IMG/VR virus record: IMGVR_UViG_3300032144_000045 | Span: 1-20,684 of that record | Reading direction: 5' to 3' (one strand) | Origin: a virus | DNA length: 20,684 nt | Shown: one piece after another, positions 6,832-18,007 of the stretch | Numbering within the stretch: position 1 is the stretch's first letter | How the letters are laid out: each line of letters starts with the position of its first letter | Position numbers and translations under genes: made by a program | Notes under the pieces: generated by a model | What the model saw: only the letters and a program-made list of their open reading frames with translations | Databases searched by the model: none | Told to the model about the DNA's origin: nothing

Positions 6832-8607
6832 CTATTGCTGGACGGGTGCGCCGGCCTGCGCGGCTGCCATCAGCCGGTTGAGCGCGGTATCCCCTTCCAT
6901 GCTTGTCTCTGACAAATCTTTCGCGGTCTTCGCCATCGGTGGCAGTGTCTCGGCCACCTGGCTCGCCTGCGCAGCCTTCTGGCGTTCAGCACGGATCTCG
7001 GCCACCTTCTCGTCGGTGCGCACGATGTCCGGTTCGATGCCGAGGCGATCTGCGTAGCGGTCGATGAACTGGTCGAAGTCCACCTTGTCGCCGATCGAGT
7101 TATCGCCCGTGGTCTTGATCGTGTTGCCGACGAAGCCCAAGAAGCGTTCGTGCCCGGCGATGCCCACAAGTTTCTGGGCCTGGGCCATGACCGACTGGTA
7201 TTCGACTTTCAGCTTCACGCCTTCAAGTTCTTCGGGCGGCTCGGGGATCAGCCCCTGCCGCTCCAAGAAGTTGAAGGTCAAATCAATGAGAGGATCGAGA
7301 AGGTCCTGGTTCAGCTGCTCGAGGACTGGACCAAGCGCCAGCAGTTTTTCTTCGTGGCGTTCCTCAACCTCTCGTGCCGTGATCTCGCGCCGGTCAGACT
7401 GGGCGAGCATCAGGAACAGGTCTTCATAGAACGACCGCTGGATCCGCATCTGGTGCTCGCGGATGTCCTCGACGAGCTCGCCAATCCGGGGGTCAACCTC
7501 GTGGATCGGACGCAGACCCTTCTGGCCATCACGTTCCGCTGCATAGGTGATGTCGCCCGGCAAGAGCGAGACTTTCGTCGTTCTCAGTTCAGGCGGGCCC
7601 GCAAGCGGTGGATTTACCAGCTTCTCGATCGCCTGAGCCTTGCGCTTGTGCATCGTCTGCAAGGCTTTGATGTCGCCCAAGGCGATCATGCCCGGGCACT
7701 CAGTTCCGTAGGCGTCCTCGCCCGTGACTTCCCAGCGAGGGGACAGGCTTGGGAAATAGTCGTAGCCGGACTCGCGCAGATAGCGATCGTCGTCGGCGCC
7801 AGTCAGGTAGGGCTTGTTGTCGCCCATGAAACCCTTCTCGTAATAGCAGGACGAGAACCGCTTATACCGCGATGACAGTTTCGTCGGGTCGAACTCGTCG
7901 TTGGGCTGCACCACGTGACAGACATCGATCCACGTTTCATAGTGGCCGTTGTCCCAGGCGTTCTTCACGTGCTCAGAGAACTTGGACCAGTCGGGCTGAC
8001 CGTTCGGTTTCATCACGCCGAACTTGCGAACAAGCTGGCGGACGGTGTAGCGAAATTCGCGGAAGAACACAGCGACCTTGTTCTTCTCGTCGTTGGCAAT
8101 CATGTACGACCCGATCGGCATCGGGTAGCAGCGCAGCACGTCTTCCAGGTCTTCCTCGATGAACATCGATCCGGTCGCGAACACGCCGATGTCGCCATAG
8201 ACGATTGGCAGTGCGTTGTACAGATTCGAGCGGAGGAAGGCAGTCGACATCCGCTGGCTGACTTCGTGCAACCACTCTTTGACAGGACCGAACTCGGCCA
8301 TGTCGGGGTCGGGCGTGGTGAGCCGAAACCACGGTCGCGCGGGGGATGTGACGCCGCCCATCATGCCCGATCGAAGAGTGCGCGCCGCAAGCGTTGCGGT
8401 GGAATCGATGATCTTCTGATTGCGTCGATCACCGCGGTTCGTGTCCGTGATCATGAAGCGCGGACGCCGCGGTAAAATGAAATCGCCCAGATCGCGCCAG
8501 TGCTGCAGAAATGACGAGCGCTCGATCTCAAGCTGAGAGCGAAGCAGTTCGTTCTTCTCGCGTTTGCTCTGCGCTTTGTACGCGTGATTGACGAGGACGT
8601 CGGCCAC
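6832..8607 (-). CDS. Portal / head-to-tail connector protein, 591 aa
   Basis: The length and sequence fit the bacteriophage head-to-tail connecting protein family used by podoviruses (T7- and BPP-1-type). Characteristic stretches are near the N terminus: FILPRRPRF, then KIIDSTATLAARTLRSGMMG and GVTSPARPWFRLTTPD (residues ~42-95), later GDIGVFATGSMFIEED and, in the second half, REHQMRIQRSFYEDLF with the tunnel-helix region. The last 60 residues are Ala/Gln/Lys-rich and probably extended. GTG start with TAGGAG 6 bases upstream, directly abutting the stop of the preceding small gene. The dodecameric portal sits at one capsid vertex, where it accepts the terminase and later the tail. Confidence 0.93.
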   Translation of the reverse strand: MADVLVNHAYKAQSKREKNELLRSQLEIERSSFLQHWRDLGDFILPRRPRFMITDTNRGDRRNQKIIDSTATLAARTLRSGMMGGVTSPARPWFRLTTPDPDMAEFGPVKEWLHEVSQRMSTAFLRSNLYNALPIVYGDIGVFATGSMFIEEDLEDVLRCYPMPIGSYMIANDEKNKVAVFFREFRYTVRQLVRKFGVMKPNGQPDWSKFSEHVKNAWDNGHYETWIDVCHVVQPNDEFDPTKLSSRYKRFSSCYYEKGFMGDNKPYLTGADDDRYLRESGYDYFPSLSPRWEVTGEDAYGTECPGMIALGDIKALQTMHKRKAQAIEKLVNPPLAGPPELRTTKVSLLPGDITYAAERDGQKGLRPIHEVDPRIGELVEDIREHQMRIQRSFYEDLFLMLAQSDRREITAREVEERHEEKLLALGPVLEQLNQDLLDPLIDLTFNFLERQGLIPEPPEELEGVKLKVEYQSVMAQAQKLVGIAGHERFLGFVGNTIKTTGDNSIGDKVDFDQFIDRYADRLGIEPDIVRTDEKVAEIRAERQKAAQASQVAETLPPMAKTAKDLSETSMEGDTALNRLMAAAQAGAPVQQ

Positions 8608-8926: not shown

Positions 8927-9406
8927 TCAGATGACCTCACACAAATACGACCGCTCTTGCAGACGAAAGCCCCGTTTCAGCAGGCTCGTCTCTTTGATCG
9001 GCGTACGAGATTCCAAAGCGATAGTGATCCAGTCGGCGTTCCTCTTGCCCCAGGCGATGAACGCATCAAGAAGAATGGCGCCTGCGCGTGTGCCGCGATG
9101 TTCCTCGGGCACCCACCAAAATGTTTCGGCGAGAACAGTGATGTCGGGATTAAACAAATGCGGCGTGACAACGCCGGCGATGAGGCCCATGCGTTCGCCG
9201 GTCTCGCGATCGTAGGCAATGAGCACAAGGTGTTTTTGGATCAGGTCGGTGATGCCCTTGCGGGCGAATTCGTCGGTGGGGAAAAGCGGGAGCTCGCTGG
9301 CAAAGAAGTCGGAAAAATCCTTCAGCTGGATGACGAGCCAGTCCAAGTCATCAAGTGTTGCGGGGCGAACGAGAACGCCCTGACGTTCTACGACCGATGT
9401 GTCCAC
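8927..9406 (-). CDS. GNAT-family N-acetyltransferase, 159 aa
   Basis: The protein has the GNAT layout: N-terminal strand and helix (VLVRPATLDDLDWLVIQL), a central strand pair (ERMGLIAGVVTP), and the acetyl-CoA motif region TFWWVPEEHRGTRAGAILLD (residues ~95-114), where HRGTRAG corresponds to the pyrophosphate-binding R/Q-x-x-G-x-G/A loop. The final strand (SLLKRGFRLQERSYL) completes the fold. Length is normal. Acetyltransferases at this site between terminase and portal occur in other phages; the substrate is unknown. The GTG start is not preceded by a clear ribosome binding site but lies 6 bases from a promoter-like -10 element, so a leaderless transcript is possible. Confidence 0.8.
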   Translation of the reverse strand: MDTSVVERQGVLVRPATLDDLDWLVIQLKDFSDFFASELPLFPTDEFARKGITDLIQKHLVLIAYDRETGERMGLIAGVVTPHLFNPDITVLAETFWWVPEEHRGTRAGAILLDAFIAWGKRNADWITIALESRTPIKETSLLKRGFRLQERSYLCEVI

Positions 9407-9499: not shown

Positions 9500-10987
9500 C
9501 TACCTGAACGGATCCCAGTCGGAGACCGTCTTGTTTCCGCCCGCCGCGAGGCTGGGGTGGACGGCCGCAATCGAAGCGGGCATCTCGACAAAGGCGAAGG
9601 TCAGCGCAAGCCCATCGGCTTCATCCGGTGAGAACTTGAGGCGCTTTTTGATCTGGTCTTTTTCCTCGAGCCTGAACTTCCCGTTGTGGAACGTGTAGGT
9701 CGGTGCGGTCAATTCCTTGAGCAAGCCTGGGCGCCGAGGCAGCGATCCGCCCTTCTTCACCCAGTCAGCCATTCTGAACCACATCTCCGAACGCTTGTTG
9801 AAGTAACGCGCATCATCGGCCTTGCCAGAAAAGTTGACCGGTACCGGCGCGTAGCCAGCCAGCTGATAGGCGTCGATCACCGAACCACCGAATCCACCGG
9901 TGTCGTCGATGAACACATTCTCGACGGGCACCATGTCCTTCGCCTGCCAGTTGCTCTGAGCGAGCGCAATGCGCGAGGCCACGTCCTGGCCCTTAGCGTT
10001 ACGCATCTCGATCGGCTTGATCTTCGCGTGCAGACCCTGTCGCGGGAAGATAATTGTTCGATCGTCACCCTCGCGAGCCACGTCGACACCGAATCGCTTC
10101 TGCGAGAAGTCGTATTGATTGGGCTTGAGCATGCGTTCCATCGCGGCCTCGACGTCTGCGACCGTGATCAGCTGATTGAACCCACCAGGCGGAAAGAGGC
10201 CGAGGATCGTGGCCATGACCCACGGGTTGTCACGACCGTAGAGTTTGAGCTGCGCACGCGCGTCGTCAGCGGCTTGTGGTCCGAACCGCGGCGAATAGAA
10301 GAATGCCTTCGCATCATCCGGGTCACCCGTGATCGTGATCACGACCCAGAGCTCACGCGCAATCGTGCTGATGTGGTAGAGCAGTCCCGTCAGGCTTGTC
10401 GGGTTGCCTGCTGCGGCAATCAGTGCATCGACAGGGCCACCCGTGAAAATCTGTTCCGCCTTCTGACCAACCTCGACCGGCATGTCGCCCGTCTCATCCA
10501 AGAGAACGAACGGGTATCGCGAGTGCAGGCCTGACAGTGCGCGACCAATCGCTTCAGAGTCGGCATCCTTGGCATACGATCGCGCGGACAAGAACCAGGT
10601 CTCTGCGTGATCCTTGGCGAAGATGCGTTCGACGTTCAGAGCGAATGCGCGCTTCAGGAACTCTGATCGTTGCTGCCACTTGGCGAGCTCGGCCCAGAGG
10701 TTGTCACGTAGGTTGTCGCGGCCTTCACCCGAGAGCGCTGCGCCCTTCGGATGCTCACCCTTATCGGCGAAGCAGGCGAGGCGGTGCCAGCCAATCCATG
10801 CGAGCACAGCGGATTTGCCGGGACCAGTGCAGGCCTTCATTCCGAGGCGTCGACGCGGATTCACCCCGCCGGCGAGGGCGTTGAGCGTGTCGGCTTGCCA
10901 TGGATCAGGCGAGGCCTTGAGTTCAGTGGTGACGAAATAGAGAGGGTCTTCGCGCCAGCGACGGATCTTCTCTTGGGCTGGGGTCAC
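9500..10987 (-). CDS. terL: Terminase large subunit (TerL), 495 aa
   Basis: The packaging motor. Residues 52-59 (ACTGPGKS) are the Walker A loop, and 160-165 (FVLLDE) the Walker B strand with catalytic Glu. The C-terminal nuclease half shows the acidic residues of the RNase H fold: D302 in FGVDVAREGDD, the Asp pair in VFIDDTGGFGG (361-362) and D457 in DEADGLALTF. Known TerL enzymes bind TerS and portal, hydrolyse ATP to pump DNA and cut the concatemer. The GTG start lacks a visible ribosome binding site and follows the TerS stop by 22 bases. Length is typical and all key residues are present. Confidence 0.93.
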   Translation of the reverse strand: MTPAQEKIRRWREDPLYFVTTELKASPDPWQADTLNALAGGVNPRRRLGMKACTGPGKSAVLAWIGWHRLACFADKGEHPKGAALSGEGRDNLRDNLWAELAKWQQRSEFLKRAFALNVERIFAKDHAETWFLSARSYAKDADSEAIGRALSGLHSRYPFVLLDETGDMPVEVGQKAEQIFTGGPVDALIAAAGNPTSLTGLLYHISTIARELWVVITITGDPDDAKAFFYSPRFGPQAADDARAQLKLYGRDNPWVMATILGLFPPGGFNQLITVADVEAAMERMLKPNQYDFSQKRFGVDVAREGDDRTIIFPRQGLHAKIKPIEMRNAKGQDVASRIALAQSNWQAKDMVPVENVFIDDTGGFGGSVIDAYQLAGYAPVPVNFSGKADDARYFNKRSEMWFRMADWVKKGGSLPRRPGLLKELTAPTYTFHNGKFRLEEKDQIKKRLKFSPDEADGLALTFAFVEMPASIAAVHPSLAAGGNKTVSDWDPFR

Positions 10988-11009: not shown

Positions 11010-11576
11010 TTACGCGGCTTCATTCGGTTGGTCCTTCGACCCGGCCACAAGGTCTTCGAGTCTGAGCGTGCCTTCGACTTTCAGCTTGGGCGTAAAGATC
11101 CCGAGCTCTTTGCCGATTTCCTTCAACGCTTCGATCTTGGGCCAGAGCTTTAGTTTCTTCGTGTCGCCTACGCGCTCACGATCGGGGCCACGGCCCTCGT
11201 AGAGTTCATCGGATTCGACGGCAGCGATCGCGGCCGCAAGTTCGGCGGGCATTTGTTTAATCGGCAAGATGTTCCCGTTCTCGTCGTAGGCGTCGCGAAT
11301 GTCGACGAGGGCGATGCGCTTCATTTCTTTGAGCACACGCTGGCGGGCCCACTCATTGCCGGCTTCGACTGCAGCGGCAAGGCGTTTCGGGCGTTCACCG
11401 CTGCGATCGTAGCGAAGCCAATCGGATAGATCGGAATAGCGGATGTCCCAGGATTTGGAGAGTTCGATGAGGTCGCCGCCTTCAACCAAGTGCTTGCACA
11501 CTTCGTCGATGAGGCCCGGCTTCTCGAGCAGAGCCTTCAGGCGGTCTTCGTAGGTTGGTTCTTTCTGCTTCACCAT
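11010..11576 (-). CDS. terS: Terminase small subunit (TerS), 188 aa
   Basis: Residues ~15-85 form a helix-rich DNA-binding part (LIELSKSWDIRYSDLSDWLR resembles a helix-turn-helix, with a second helical pair after it). The later part contains YDENGNILPIKQMPAELAAA, then VGDTKKLKLWPKIEALKEIG and KELGIF, the pattern of the oligomerising and C-terminal region in Terminase_2-type small subunits. TerS recognises the packaging site and hands DNA to TerL, whose gene is next. The ATG has no clear ribosome binding site, but a good -10 element ends 9 bases upstream, consistent with a leaderless or nearly leaderless message. Confidence 0.88.
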   Translation of the reverse strand: MVKQKEPTYEDRLKALLEKPGLIDEVCKHLVEGGDLIELSKSWDIRYSDLSDWLRYDRSGERPKRLAAAVEAGNEWARQRVLKEMKRIALVDIRDAYDENGNILPIKQMPAELAAAIAAVESDELYEGRGPDRERVGDTKKLKLWPKIEALKEIGKELGIFTPKLKVEGTLRLEDLVAGSKDQPNEAA

Positions 11577-15238: not shown

Positions 15239-15541
15239 ATGACCATCAAATCACTAAAGGAAGCGAGGGAAATCATTGTGAACTGGAACAAAATGTTCCC
15301 CGAAGAAGGTCATCGTCATGAAATAGCGAATGGCGCATCCGATGGCCATGAATACTGGCAAGCCAAAGGAGCCCTCGCAGCGATGGAGTTTGAAGAGGTG
15401 AAGGGGTTGGCGTGGGCCATAGAATATTTTTTGAGTGAGAAAAATGCCCCTGTTAAGGACTTAGTTCTAATGAGGGATTCTGTTGAAAAACTAAGTGAAG
15501 CCCTCGCCAAATTCAAGAGCAGTTTAGGAAAGGAGTCTTAA
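15239..15541 (+). CDS. Last gene of the rightward operon, helical, 100 aa
   Basis: ATG at 15239, four bases after the preceding stop; GTGAGG is a weak ribosome binding site. The protein is mostly helical (TIKSLKEAREIIVNWNKMF, LSEALAKFKSSLGKES) and not recognised. The last third uses more AT-rich codons than its neighbours. The stop is 4 bases before the first tRNA-like gene, so the RNA probably forms the 3' part of the same transcript. Confidence 0.6.
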   Translation: MTIKSLKEAREIIVNWNKMFPEEGHRHEIANGASDGHEYWQAKGALAAMEFEEVKGLAWAIEYFLSEKNAPVKDLVLMRDSVEKLSEALAKFKSSLGKES

Positions 15542-15545
15542 GATT

Positions 15546-15627
15546 TGAGGATTAGCTTAGTGGAAAAGCACTGGTGGTACCTGTAAAACAGTATCCAGTT
15601 TCAGAGGTTCGATTCCTCTATCCTCAA
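15546..15627 (+). tRNA. tRNA-like gene with enlarged anticodon arm
   Basis: Acceptor stem TGAGGAT/ATCCTCA (15546-15552, 15620-15626), T8 and A9, D-stem GCTT/AAGC with a GG-containing loop, and T-arm AGAGG-TTCGATT-CCTCT (15603-15619) are all canonical. The anticodon arm is not: CTGG/CCAG (15571-15574, 15595-15598) closes 20 bases instead of about 9. The best fold adds GTAC/GTAT after a two-base bulge, leaving a 10-base loop CTGTAAAACA. That loop contains CTGTAAA, the usual tRNA-Tyr (GUA) loop, plus three extra bases, so the decoded amino acid cannot be assigned. No CCA is encoded. It could be an unusual functional tRNA, a processed RNA, a nuclease decoy or a decayed gene. Confidence 0.6.
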
Positions 15628-15633
15628 TATTTA

Positions 15634-15775
15634 GCTAGTGCGGCGTGGACGGTGACACGCAGTCGCCTATAAGGAGAGACTGAGATTCCAAACGGCCCAG
15701 TTGCCCCAGTGGGGTGACATGCAATGGAAAGCCAAGGCAGGAATCCGATAGCCGGTTCAATTCCGGCCACTAGCA
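15634..15775 (+). ncRNA. Giant tRNA-like RNA with structured variable region
   Basis: Seven bases after the first RNA, GCTAGTG (15634-15640) pairs perfectly with CACTAGC (15768-15774). D-stem GCGT/ACGC (15643-15646, 15657-15660) and T-arm GCCGG-TTCAATT-CCGGC (15751-15767) are tRNA-like. The anticodon position is AGTC/GACT (15661-15664, 15678-15681) enclosing CCT/AGG, with no proper 7-base loop. Between it and the T-arm lie about 69 bases closed by GATTCC/GGAATC (15684-15689, 15740-15745). Inside is CCA-g-TTGC paired with GCAATGG and a small CCC/GGG hairpin. Total length is 142 against ~75-95 for tRNAs. Positions 8-9 are CG and CCA is absent. It may be non-decoding, or a tRNA interrupted by an insertion. 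Confidence 0.55.
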
Positions 15776-15781
15776 ACAGAT

Positions 15782-18007
15782 TTAAAACGGCACCAGTTCT
15801 TCCTGAGCGTCAGCCTTCCGCCACACTCGTCGCTGTGACCCACCGTTCCATTCCTTAGAGCTCTTCCATCCCAGAGTCGTCAGCACCGCGCCAATCCGCC
15901 GCTGCACACCGACGTCGAGTTTGCCTAAATCGATGTGCAGGCAGTCCGTCGCAATGTCGCGAACCATGACCTCGCCCTTGCCCAACAGGTAATCGTAGAT
16001 CGCGCCTTCCCACTCGTCGGCCTGGCGCCGCTCTTTCTGTTCCTTCTCGGTCTCGTCCTTCGGCATCTCGTACCAGGTGTCGCCGCGCTTGAACTTGGCC
16101 ACGGCCTCAGCGAAGAACTGTTCGCGATCGGTCCGAATCATTTCCTTGTTGATATCCCGGCACTTGATCGGCCAGAAGCGCCGGCCGCCCGTCGAGTCCC
16201 TTAAATAGTTCGTCTCGTTCGTGGTTCCGACGAAGATCGACATGCGCGGGTGGTCTTCTGCGACCCGTCCGTAGGGCGCGCGATAGCGATCGGTTCGGCA
16301 GGTTATGACCTGCTTGATGCGCGTGACTTCCGCGCGCGAGAACGAATCGAGCTCCGCGATTTCGATGATCATCTTCCCGTGCAGGACCATGAAAAAGTCC
16401 TTGTTCGTCACCGATTCGTGGGCCTCTGCGTACCAGCTGCGGCCGATGATGTCGAGCGCTGTCGATTTGAACGTGCCCTGGGCCCCCTCGAGGACGACCA
16501 TGTTATCGACCTTGCAGCCCGGCTCATGAATGCGCGCGACCATCGAGATCCAGAAGTTGCGTCCGACAGCCCGGGTGTAGGGCGTGTCCTCGGCGCCGAA
16601 GCAGTCGATGAAAAAAGGTTCGATCCGTTCCTTTCCGTCCCAGGTCAGAGTCGACATCCAGTCGAGCGGCGCATTCTTCGAGTTGCGGTGACCGTAGAGG
16701 ATCACCGCCTTGTAGACGATATCGTCGGACATTTTGTGCAAACCGATCTCGCGCTGCATGAACTCGGCGAGAGCGATCGAGTCCTTGTCGCCCCACTCTC
16801 TGAACGGACCGCCCCAGGTCGTGAAGTATTTGCGGTGGAAGACGTCGTACCAGATGCGGCCGGTCAGATCCTGATGCCTGTCGATCACACGCATGGCGTT
16901 GTCGACGTTGATATAAGGCGTGCCGTTGTTGTTCGAGGCCAGGGCCAGCTGGTCGTATAGGGCATAAAGGCTGGGTGAACTATCTTGGTCGTCGCCCGTA
17001 TTGACCGTGACGTGGACGTTTGCTTGGGCAGCGGCGAGAGTATTGCCACCTCTCTCCACAACCGCGGTGGCCTGGGCAAACACCGATGCGCGAGGCTTTG
17101 CCCAGTCCCTGAAACTCGGCCAAGTCCAGCCATCGGCTACCGCGTCAGCTGCATCCCACCCTTCAGGTTGCCCATTTGTATCGATCAACTTTAATTCGGG
17201 GCAGTGCGGTGAAAGGATGCGACCTATTGCTTTAATCGCTTCGAGCCCGGGTTTGTCCGCATCCGGCCAGATCAGAATCTTGCGCCCGTGCAGCGGCGCC
17301 CAATCCGCCTTGTCCCAGGCCTTCGCCCCGTTCGGCCACGTCACCACCACGTACACATGGCCGGCGATCTTGCGCGCTGCGTCGGCCGCCTTCTCGCCTT
17401 CGACCAAAAGCACCGCTGCATCCGGGCGTTCTGCCAAGAGCTCGAGCCCGTAAAGTGGACGCGGACTTGGGAAGCCCTTCTGAACCCATCGTCCTACGCT
17501 CGCACTCCACGCCCAGGGCGAGAATTCCTTGCCGGTAGGGGTGTCATAGCGGGCCACGTAGAAAATGGGCTTCCCGGCCGAATCTCGGTAGGGCCAGGTG
17601 GCCACAGGCTGACCGTGCCTGACATGGACCATGGGCGGAACAATCACGCCATCGGGCGGTGCGGTTATCTGATGCTCTTTGGGAGGTTGCTTGGCAGGTT
17701 CTTCGGCAGGACTGAGTTGGAAACCAATTTGGGCGGCCAGTTGTTTGGCGGCCGCAGCTTGAGTGATGTTCTGGATCGCAGCGTAGAGGCTGACGAGATC
17801 GCCACCCCGTTCATCGCCGGCGAAGTCCGACCACTTCCCAGTTTCAAAATTTGCTTTACAGGATTCTCCGGGCCCGCCGCGTAGCGATGCGCAGGTCCAT
17901 TCCCGGCCGATGAGTTTTCCACCGGGTAACCATTGCGGAATGAACTCGCGCGAGCGCGCAAGTAGGGCCTCCGACAGTCCCTTAAAATCAAGAAGTTTTT
18001 TTGGCAA
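15782..18007 (-). CDS. Primase-helicase of the VirE/D5 type, 741 aa
   Basis: N-terminal primase-like part with WTCASLRGGPGESCKANF and GKWSDFAGDERGGDL, then a TOPRIM domain with the Glu of VEGEKAAD (~202-209) and the DxD of WPDADKPG (~247-254). The C-terminal half is a VirE-type SF3-like helicase: Walker A GAQGTFKS (~508-515), Walker B IIEIAELD (~547-554), FVGTTNETN and TGGRRFWP. Such proteins lay primers and unwind DNA at the phage fork. I chose the TTG at 18005-18007, with AGGGGGG four bases upstream; a TTG at 18050-18052 would overlap the nuclease gene by 65 bases. It overlaps that gene by 20 bases. All key residues are present. Confidence 0.87.
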   Translation of the reverse strand: MPKKLLDFKGLSEALLARSREFIPQWLPGGKLIGREWTCASLRGGPGESCKANFETGKWSDFAGDERGGDLVSLYAAIQNITQAAAAKQLAAQIGFQLSPAEEPAKQPPKEHQITAPPDGVIVPPMVHVRHGQPVATWPYRDSAGKPIFYVARYDTPTGKEFSPWAWSASVGRWVQKGFPSPRPLYGLELLAERPDAAVLLVEGEKAADAARKIAGHVYVVVTWPNGAKAWDKADWAPLHGRKILIWPDADKPGLEAIKAIGRILSPHCPELKLIDTNGQPEGWDAADAVADGWTWPSFRDWAKPRASVFAQATAVVERGGNTLAAAQANVHVTVNTGDDQDSSPSLYALYDQLALASNNNGTPYINVDNAMRVIDRHQDLTGRIWYDVFHRKYFTTWGGPFREWGDKDSIALAEFMQREIGLHKMSDDIVYKAVILYGHRNSKNAPLDWMSTLTWDGKERIEPFFIDCFGAEDTPYTRAVGRNFWISMVARIHEPGCKVDNMVVLEGAQGTFKSTALDIIGRSWYAEAHESVTNKDFFMVLHGKMIIEIAELDSFSRAEVTRIKQVITCRTDRYRAPYGRVAEDHPRMSIFVGTTNETNYLRDSTGGRRFWPIKCRDINKEMIRTDREQFFAEAVAKFKRGDTWYEMPKDETEKEQKERRQADEWEGAIYDYLLGKGEVMVRDIATDCLHIDLGKLDVGVQRRIGAVLTTLGWKSSKEWNGGSQRRVWRKADAQEELVPF

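Follow-up and report, generated by a model that had tools for sequence, protein, structure and literature searches.

Non-decoding RNAs of phages that resemble tRNAs constitute a known class, at the far end of which the family described here is rated to lie, and the question of their purpose dates from the stable RNAs of phage T4. Equally, tRNA-like genes of phages are usually either tallied as tRNAs or overlooked. The T4 species 1 RNA (rnaC, 139 nt) and species 2 RNA (rnaD, 119 nt), which adjoin tRNA genes and are annotated as small stable RNAs, were compared as single T4 copies with no wider family. The closest known RNA is rnaC, which shares with the new family a perfect terminal tRNA T arm (CCGGG-TTCGAAT-CCCGG) and extra folded RNA within a tRNA-like frame, but folds without a clean 7-bp acceptor stem or the GCGTG/CACGC D arm; a search of the T4 tRNA region with the covariance model R2 gave no match at E<=1, and homology to rnaC was not found by it. 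Class II tRNAs (Leu, Ser, Tyr, Sec) are alike in acceptor stem, GG-bearing D arm, which in the new family is nearest to that of tRNA-Leu, and T arm. However, these tRNAs possess an anticodon arm followed by a 10-25 nt variable arm, whereas the family carries C8 rather than U8, lacks an anticodon arm in most members and accommodates at that site an unrelated folded RNA of 34-211 nt. Similarly, tmRNA joins a large other domain to a tRNA-like acceptor and T arm, but has no paired D stem and contains a coding stretch and pseudoknots. In laboratory tRNA-scaffold vectors of the Ponchon and Dardel type, a foreign RNA reportedly replaces the anticodon arm and is thereby protected in the cell; those vectors are man-made, whereas the like layout of the new family is natural and varies by phage. 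By analogy only, adenovirus VA RNA and the tRNA-like structures of plant viruses are likewise viral non-decoding structural mimics, although from other viruses and with other folds, with no relation in sequence or structure shown.

The window, that is the whole stretch of 20,684 nucleotides analysed, is a 20.7-kb IMG/VR virus record (IMGVR_UViG_3300032144_000045) that encodes terminase, portal, primase/helicase and methyltransferase proteins. The last early gene on the plus strand stops at 15541 and the primase gene on the other strand at 15782; the gap of 240 bases between them is filled by two tandem RNAs, RNA1 and RNA2, with the following features:

15545-15628 (+): RNA1, a second tRNA-like RNA adjoining RNA2; Rfam tRNA score 51.8 bits, insert in the anticodon loop
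15634-15775 (+): RNA2, the entire tRNA-like RNA of 142 nt, identified by R2 and R3 model scores and a fold z of -3.2
15634-15640 (+): 5' strand of the acceptor stem, GCTAGTG; 7/7 pairs with 15768-15774, all seven covarying in the family
15641-15642 (+): C8-G9 linker, hallmark of the family; C8 in 28/28 unconstrained members and 70/70 in A5
15643-15660 (+): D arm GCGTG-GACGGTGA-CACGC with GG in the loop; 5/5 pairs, stem covarying in model-found copies
15661-15681 (+): hairpin AGTC..GACT behind the D arm, with a 13-nt loop, at the site of the anticodon arm; predicted fold
15684-15745 (+): folded cargo domain of 62 nt closed by GATTCC/GGAATC; -22.6 kcal/mol, z -2.2, in this phage only
15751-15767 (+): T arm GCCGG-TTCAATT-CCGGC; 5/5 pairs, 4/5 covarying in the family
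15768-15775 (+): 3' strand of the acceptor, CACTAGC, then unpaired A73, without an encoded CCA; read from the sequence

The minimum-energy fold of RNA2 (-56.1 kcal/mol, z -3.20), equalled in stability by none of 200 shuffles, recovers the acceptor, the D arm, the T arm and the GATTCC/GGAATC helix. The 7-bp acceptor GCTAGTG/CACTAGC (7/7) and the 5-bp T stem GCCGG/CCGGC (5/5, loop TTCAATT) are present where the first-pass annotation had placed them, and its proposal that the extra sequence is folded and closed by GATTCC/GGAATC is reproduced by the fold. Its variable region of about 69 nt is indeed a folded insert, but the size has to be corrected, as 90 nt extend between D arm and T arm, 62 of them (15684-15745) closed by the helix. 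On the other hand, the inner pairing suggested for this insert, CCA-g-TTGC/GCAATGG together with CCC/GGG, is unfavourable at -9.6 versus -22.6 kcal/mol for the best fold, which contains an 8-pair hairpin GTTGCCCC-AGT-GGGGTGAC, and the perfect 5-bp D arm at 15643-15660 had been overlooked. The anticodon arm of a decoding tRNA (5-bp stem, 7-nt loop, U33) is lacking in RNA2, which bears out the earlier comment on the absence of a normal 7-base anticodon loop; the hairpin behind the D arm (15661-15681), with its loop of 13 nt, is weak when taken alone (z -1.14). An A precedes the T stem of RNA2 as in 59 of 70 members.

Such a T arm is combined with a matching acceptor at only two sites on either strand of the window, RNA2 and, at 15546-15626, RNA1. 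No Rfam 15 family matches RNA2 even at E<=10, the Rfam tRNA model applied to 15500-15850 at E<=10 has RNA1 as its sole match, ARAGORN calls no tRNA at RNA2, and neither ARAGORN nor Rfam detects a tmRNA in the window. RNA1 itself has normal acceptor, D and T arms with a 20-nt region in place of the anticodon loop, and in the family model search it falls outside the new family. A call of RNA1 as tRNA-Gly(ACC) by ARAGORN was rejected, as it depends on a mispaired stem.

RNA2 served as the seed sequence in the search for the remaining family members. In IMG/VR, five contigs matched a D-arm pattern that left two positions free; in four of them a matching acceptor precedes the D arm, and a T arm with the second acceptor strand follows it. 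A shorter 16-base D-arm pattern matched 73 contigs and revealed the full frame in 28 distinct sequences. Extension by a free-D-loop pattern and R2 yielded at least 105 distinct members of 78-271 nt among the matches listed, which is a lower bound, the true family being larger. RNA2 itself scores 85.7 bits with R2 and 77.1 bits with R3, being a training row in both models. With compensatory changes in the scaffold of these relatives and the absence of the family from Rfam, the earlier suggestion of a new phage non-coding RNA on a tRNA scaffold is supported, and RNA2 almost certainly belongs to a large phage RNA family with the anatomy given above. The D arm alone worked as a search key; exact patterns taken from the insert, or from the T arm together with the acceptor, matched nothing. 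In a negative set of 100 loci of terminase- or primase-related phages, the window was the sole match. Rfam reported only ordinary tRNAs on the member loci. Short-query BLAST against 50,697 GenBank phages produced no convincing match, and short D-arm queries against GenBank phages and plasmids produced chance-like matches mostly within genes, which is weak evidence of absence. In 398 Pseudomonadota genomes, searched by model and pattern with only some candidates scored per genome, the matches were ordinary tRNAs or weak D-arm matches that were not accepted, which does not prove absence. An RNA family on a tRNA scaffold of this kind was not found in Rfam or in the papers searched, which comprise open-access literature as distinct from subscription papers and most preprints, and priority is unproven.

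The members reside mostly in phage contigs with few proteins in common (97 loci compared). Among these loci no constant neighbouring gene or protein partner was found, the commonest neighbours being replication and recombination genes (Pfam: methylase/helicase, AAA, YqaJ, DNA polymerase A, RecT). The RNA does not track phage ancestry, for no copy was present at the 45 terminase, 82 primase and 33 genome loci taken from related phages. Across 1.86 Mb of DNA from related phages, a structural scan found one other comparable RNA at a similar place, a 96-nt tRNA-like RNA in an AT-rich relative (L032:877-972, minus strand; Rfam tRNA 44.1 bits), which has a 9-nt anticodon loop and a variable-region hairpin and occupies, as in the window, a position upstream of the terminase genes. 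Among 297 genomes sampled from Acidobacteriota, the phylum of the Acidobacteria locus L156, one further sequence was accepted as a member (L385, 50.5 bits), the remaining genome matches being ordinary tRNAs or weak matches:

1501-1632 of L385 (-): family member with T loop TATCAAGC, in a Mu-like prophage with portal, terminase, GemA and endolysin genes

This member is followed by a strong intrinsic-terminator sequence, GCCCCGC-ACCC-GCGGGGC-TTTTT; terminator sequences are not enriched downstream of members overall (1/106). Several phages harbour two to four copies, often with identical acceptor stems and different inserts. Four members are located within 1.4 kb on both strands of a single AT-rich phage (L291:6221-7571), one of which, at 7121-7292, contains the hairpin ACGGA-TTTTAAA-TCCGT, whose loop would correspond to an anticodon UUA. 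In L208, two paralogues share the acceptor GCCCGGT, the one at 10483-10618 long and without an anticodon arm and the one at 11341-11418, of 78 nt, a callable tRNA-Arg(CCT); they are a natural before-and-after pair. In L168, another tRNA-like unit (AGGGCGG ... CCAACCCGCCCT, T loop TATCGAAT) adjoins a member on the minus strand directly after 9111, with a D region that resembles a long hairpin rather than a D arm.

The scaffold is a folded RNA under selection, as computed from an alignment of 70 members. Acceptor, D and T stems are paired in 98.1% of cells versus 74.6% after shuffling, and changes on both sides occur at 14 of 17 pairs (seven in the acceptor, three in the D stem and four in the T stem). 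The covariation score of 0.566 compares with 0.108 for shuffled alignments and was reached by none of 500 shuffles, while slid structures score 0.047-0.075; an alignment of 20 members agrees in its covariation result. Since the D arm was the search key, its conservation is in part built in, but further copies that the model picked up within the same contigs bear other D stems such as CAGTG/CACTG, GCATA/TATGC and GTGTG/CACAC. Position 8 of tRNA is U almost without exception. In contrast, C8 is found in 28/28 members from the second scan, in which this position was unconstrained, and in 70/70 in A5. Furthermore, types of D and T loop associate, GGG or CGGT loops with TTCRA, GACAGG or GAAAGG with TGCAA, and GAGGGA or GATGGA with TATCAAG, an association that is consistent with the expected contact of D and T loops as in the tRNA elbow. 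CCA is encoded in only 6 of 110 members, and the discriminator base and the acceptor sequence vary, so that neither charging nor a single binding partner is implied. Apparent long acceptors of 8-19 bp are mostly near chance, with the exception of L167.

In the insert, structure is kept and sequence is not. Inserts of about 26-211 nt are unrelated between most phages, that of RNA2 included, and none of their k-mers exceeds shuffles. Their structure does exceed shuffles (mean z -0.89, n=105 listed members), and insert helices exhibit compensatory changes among the close relatives L349/L372/L293, L328/L373, L310/L312 and L321/L371, so that scaffold and insert alike behave as functional RNA. Nine inserts of the members listed have a second, complete T arm nested in them (0.24 in shuffles), accompanied in L212 and L327 by a nested acceptor, and the insert of L333 contains a canonical D arm; certain inserts therefore are other tRNAs or derive from them. 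No relative has the insert of RNA2, similarity to that of L356 (CAGTCGCCTAT..GACTG) being only borderline, and with no homologue the GATTCC/GGAATC helix has no covariation support. An anticodon-type hairpin occurs in just 5 of 105 listed members against 1.3 by chance; decoding is therefore not the general role, which is in line with the doubt raised in the first-pass annotation.

The reading that we favour, with a probability of roughly 0.6, is a family of stable non-decoding RNAs that combine a constant tRNA top half with a phage-specific folded domain and may act as decoy or docking RNAs. Its scaffold would consist of acceptor stem, C8-G9, D arm and T arm, the folded domain replacing anticodon arm and variable loop. 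RNA2 in particular is very probably a stable non-decoding RNA, the function of which we infer. The acceptor and T arm of tRNA are read by RNase P, 3' tRNA nucleases, the CCA-adding enzyme and EF-Tu, and RNase P also reads the elbow; since tRNA enzymes recognize these parts, RNA2 should be excised and stabilized like a tRNA. Transcribed along with the neighbouring early genes and RNA1, it might be released by host enzymes acting on tRNA ends (RNase P, RNase Z or exonucleases) and receive CCA from the host, giving a stable RNA. Its elbow and acceptor could then recruit or occupy host factors that recognize tRNA top halves, while the fast-changing insert would meet host-specific partners and differ by host or opponent; the large arm, as had been proposed, may be a binding site for a protein. 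Among the functions considered, a decoy or docking role is ranked first, if only tentatively. A broader picture is more doubtful still, namely a common modular class of phage RNAs in which the constant tRNA top half recruits tRNA-handling factors of the host and interchangeable domains counter host defences or rewire the tRNA enzymes of the host, with exchange among unrelated phages and with assembly in part through the nesting of tRNA-like units in one another.

Alternatively, members could be decaying genes, former class II tRNAs with a lower half that has drifted and been enlarged by insertions. The tRNA-Leu-like D arm, the weak detection of cellular tRNA-Leu and tRNA-Cys by the family models and near-normal paralogues in some phages, the callable tRNA-Arg(CCT) at L208:11341-11418 and L304:6126-6225 with its tRNA-Leu-like D arm, are compatible with this. 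Decay, however, does not preserve the three stems of the scaffold through compensatory changes, as seen across 70 diverse members, nor would it do so in the cargo helices; hence decay is not likely and has been given a very low weight. An origin from a class II tRNA is nevertheless likely, since the D arm is tRNA-Leu-like and the L208:11341 and L304:6126 RNAs look intermediate. Equally hard to credit is a decoding tRNA with an intron-like insert removed by splicing, as entertained in the first-pass annotation. In silico removal of the 62 nt plus six loop nucleotides leaves a 74-nt molecule that ARAGORN calls as a tRNA, and L291:7121-7292 contains a plausible anticodon arm, but excision of the folded arm alone results in no callable tRNA. 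Moreover, the rarity of anticodon hairpins among listed members speaks against a spliced tRNA, no halves of a split anticodon stem flank the insert, a helix joining the insert ends is not enriched (31/100 versus 22.9 shuffled, range 14-34), and inserts have no common intron signature and are mostly below the size of known self-splicing introns.

The layout of a fixed scaffold and a variable insert is also that of guide RNAs, whereby the scaffold would stabilize a guide directed against mRNAs of phage or host. Yet the longest complementarity to the surrounding phage DNA is 10.28 nt versus 10.05 nt shuffled, and inserts are structured rather than open; with no complementarity to the phage itself found, antisense regulation ranks lower than a decoy or docking role and appears improbable. 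Genes for tRNAs are common integration sites, and a DNA element such as an attachment or recombination site that merely resembles tRNA might be envisaged, with an integrase gene 67 bp from the member in L349 and T arms nested in nine inserts suggestive of recombination between tRNA-like units. Compensatory changes in three helices, the association of D and T loops and a tRNA-like elbow indicate a folded RNA instead, and an integrase is not a constant neighbour, which leaves this explanation with next to no credence.

Neither RNA2 nor a typical relative is reported by ARAGORN or Rfam. A family of at least 105 members with a fixed tRNA top half and an ever-changing insert means that phages use the tRNA body beyond decoding. 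The models, the conserved D arm, members with paralogues and the prophage copy provide a handle on the purpose of non-decoding phage RNAs that resemble tRNAs. If members of the favoured family of stable non-decoding RNAs act as decoys, they may reveal tRNA-binding host factors or tRNA-cutting defences that phages must disarm.

Two protein-coding features were observed besides. In the window, a gene for a GNAT-type acetyltransferase (8927-9406, minus strand; PHROG 1249) is located between the terminase and portal region. In L025:8900-11281, the terminase large subunit is broken after residue 59 by about 300 intein-like residues that end in VTHN ahead of S, with an equal gap in L019 and L020.
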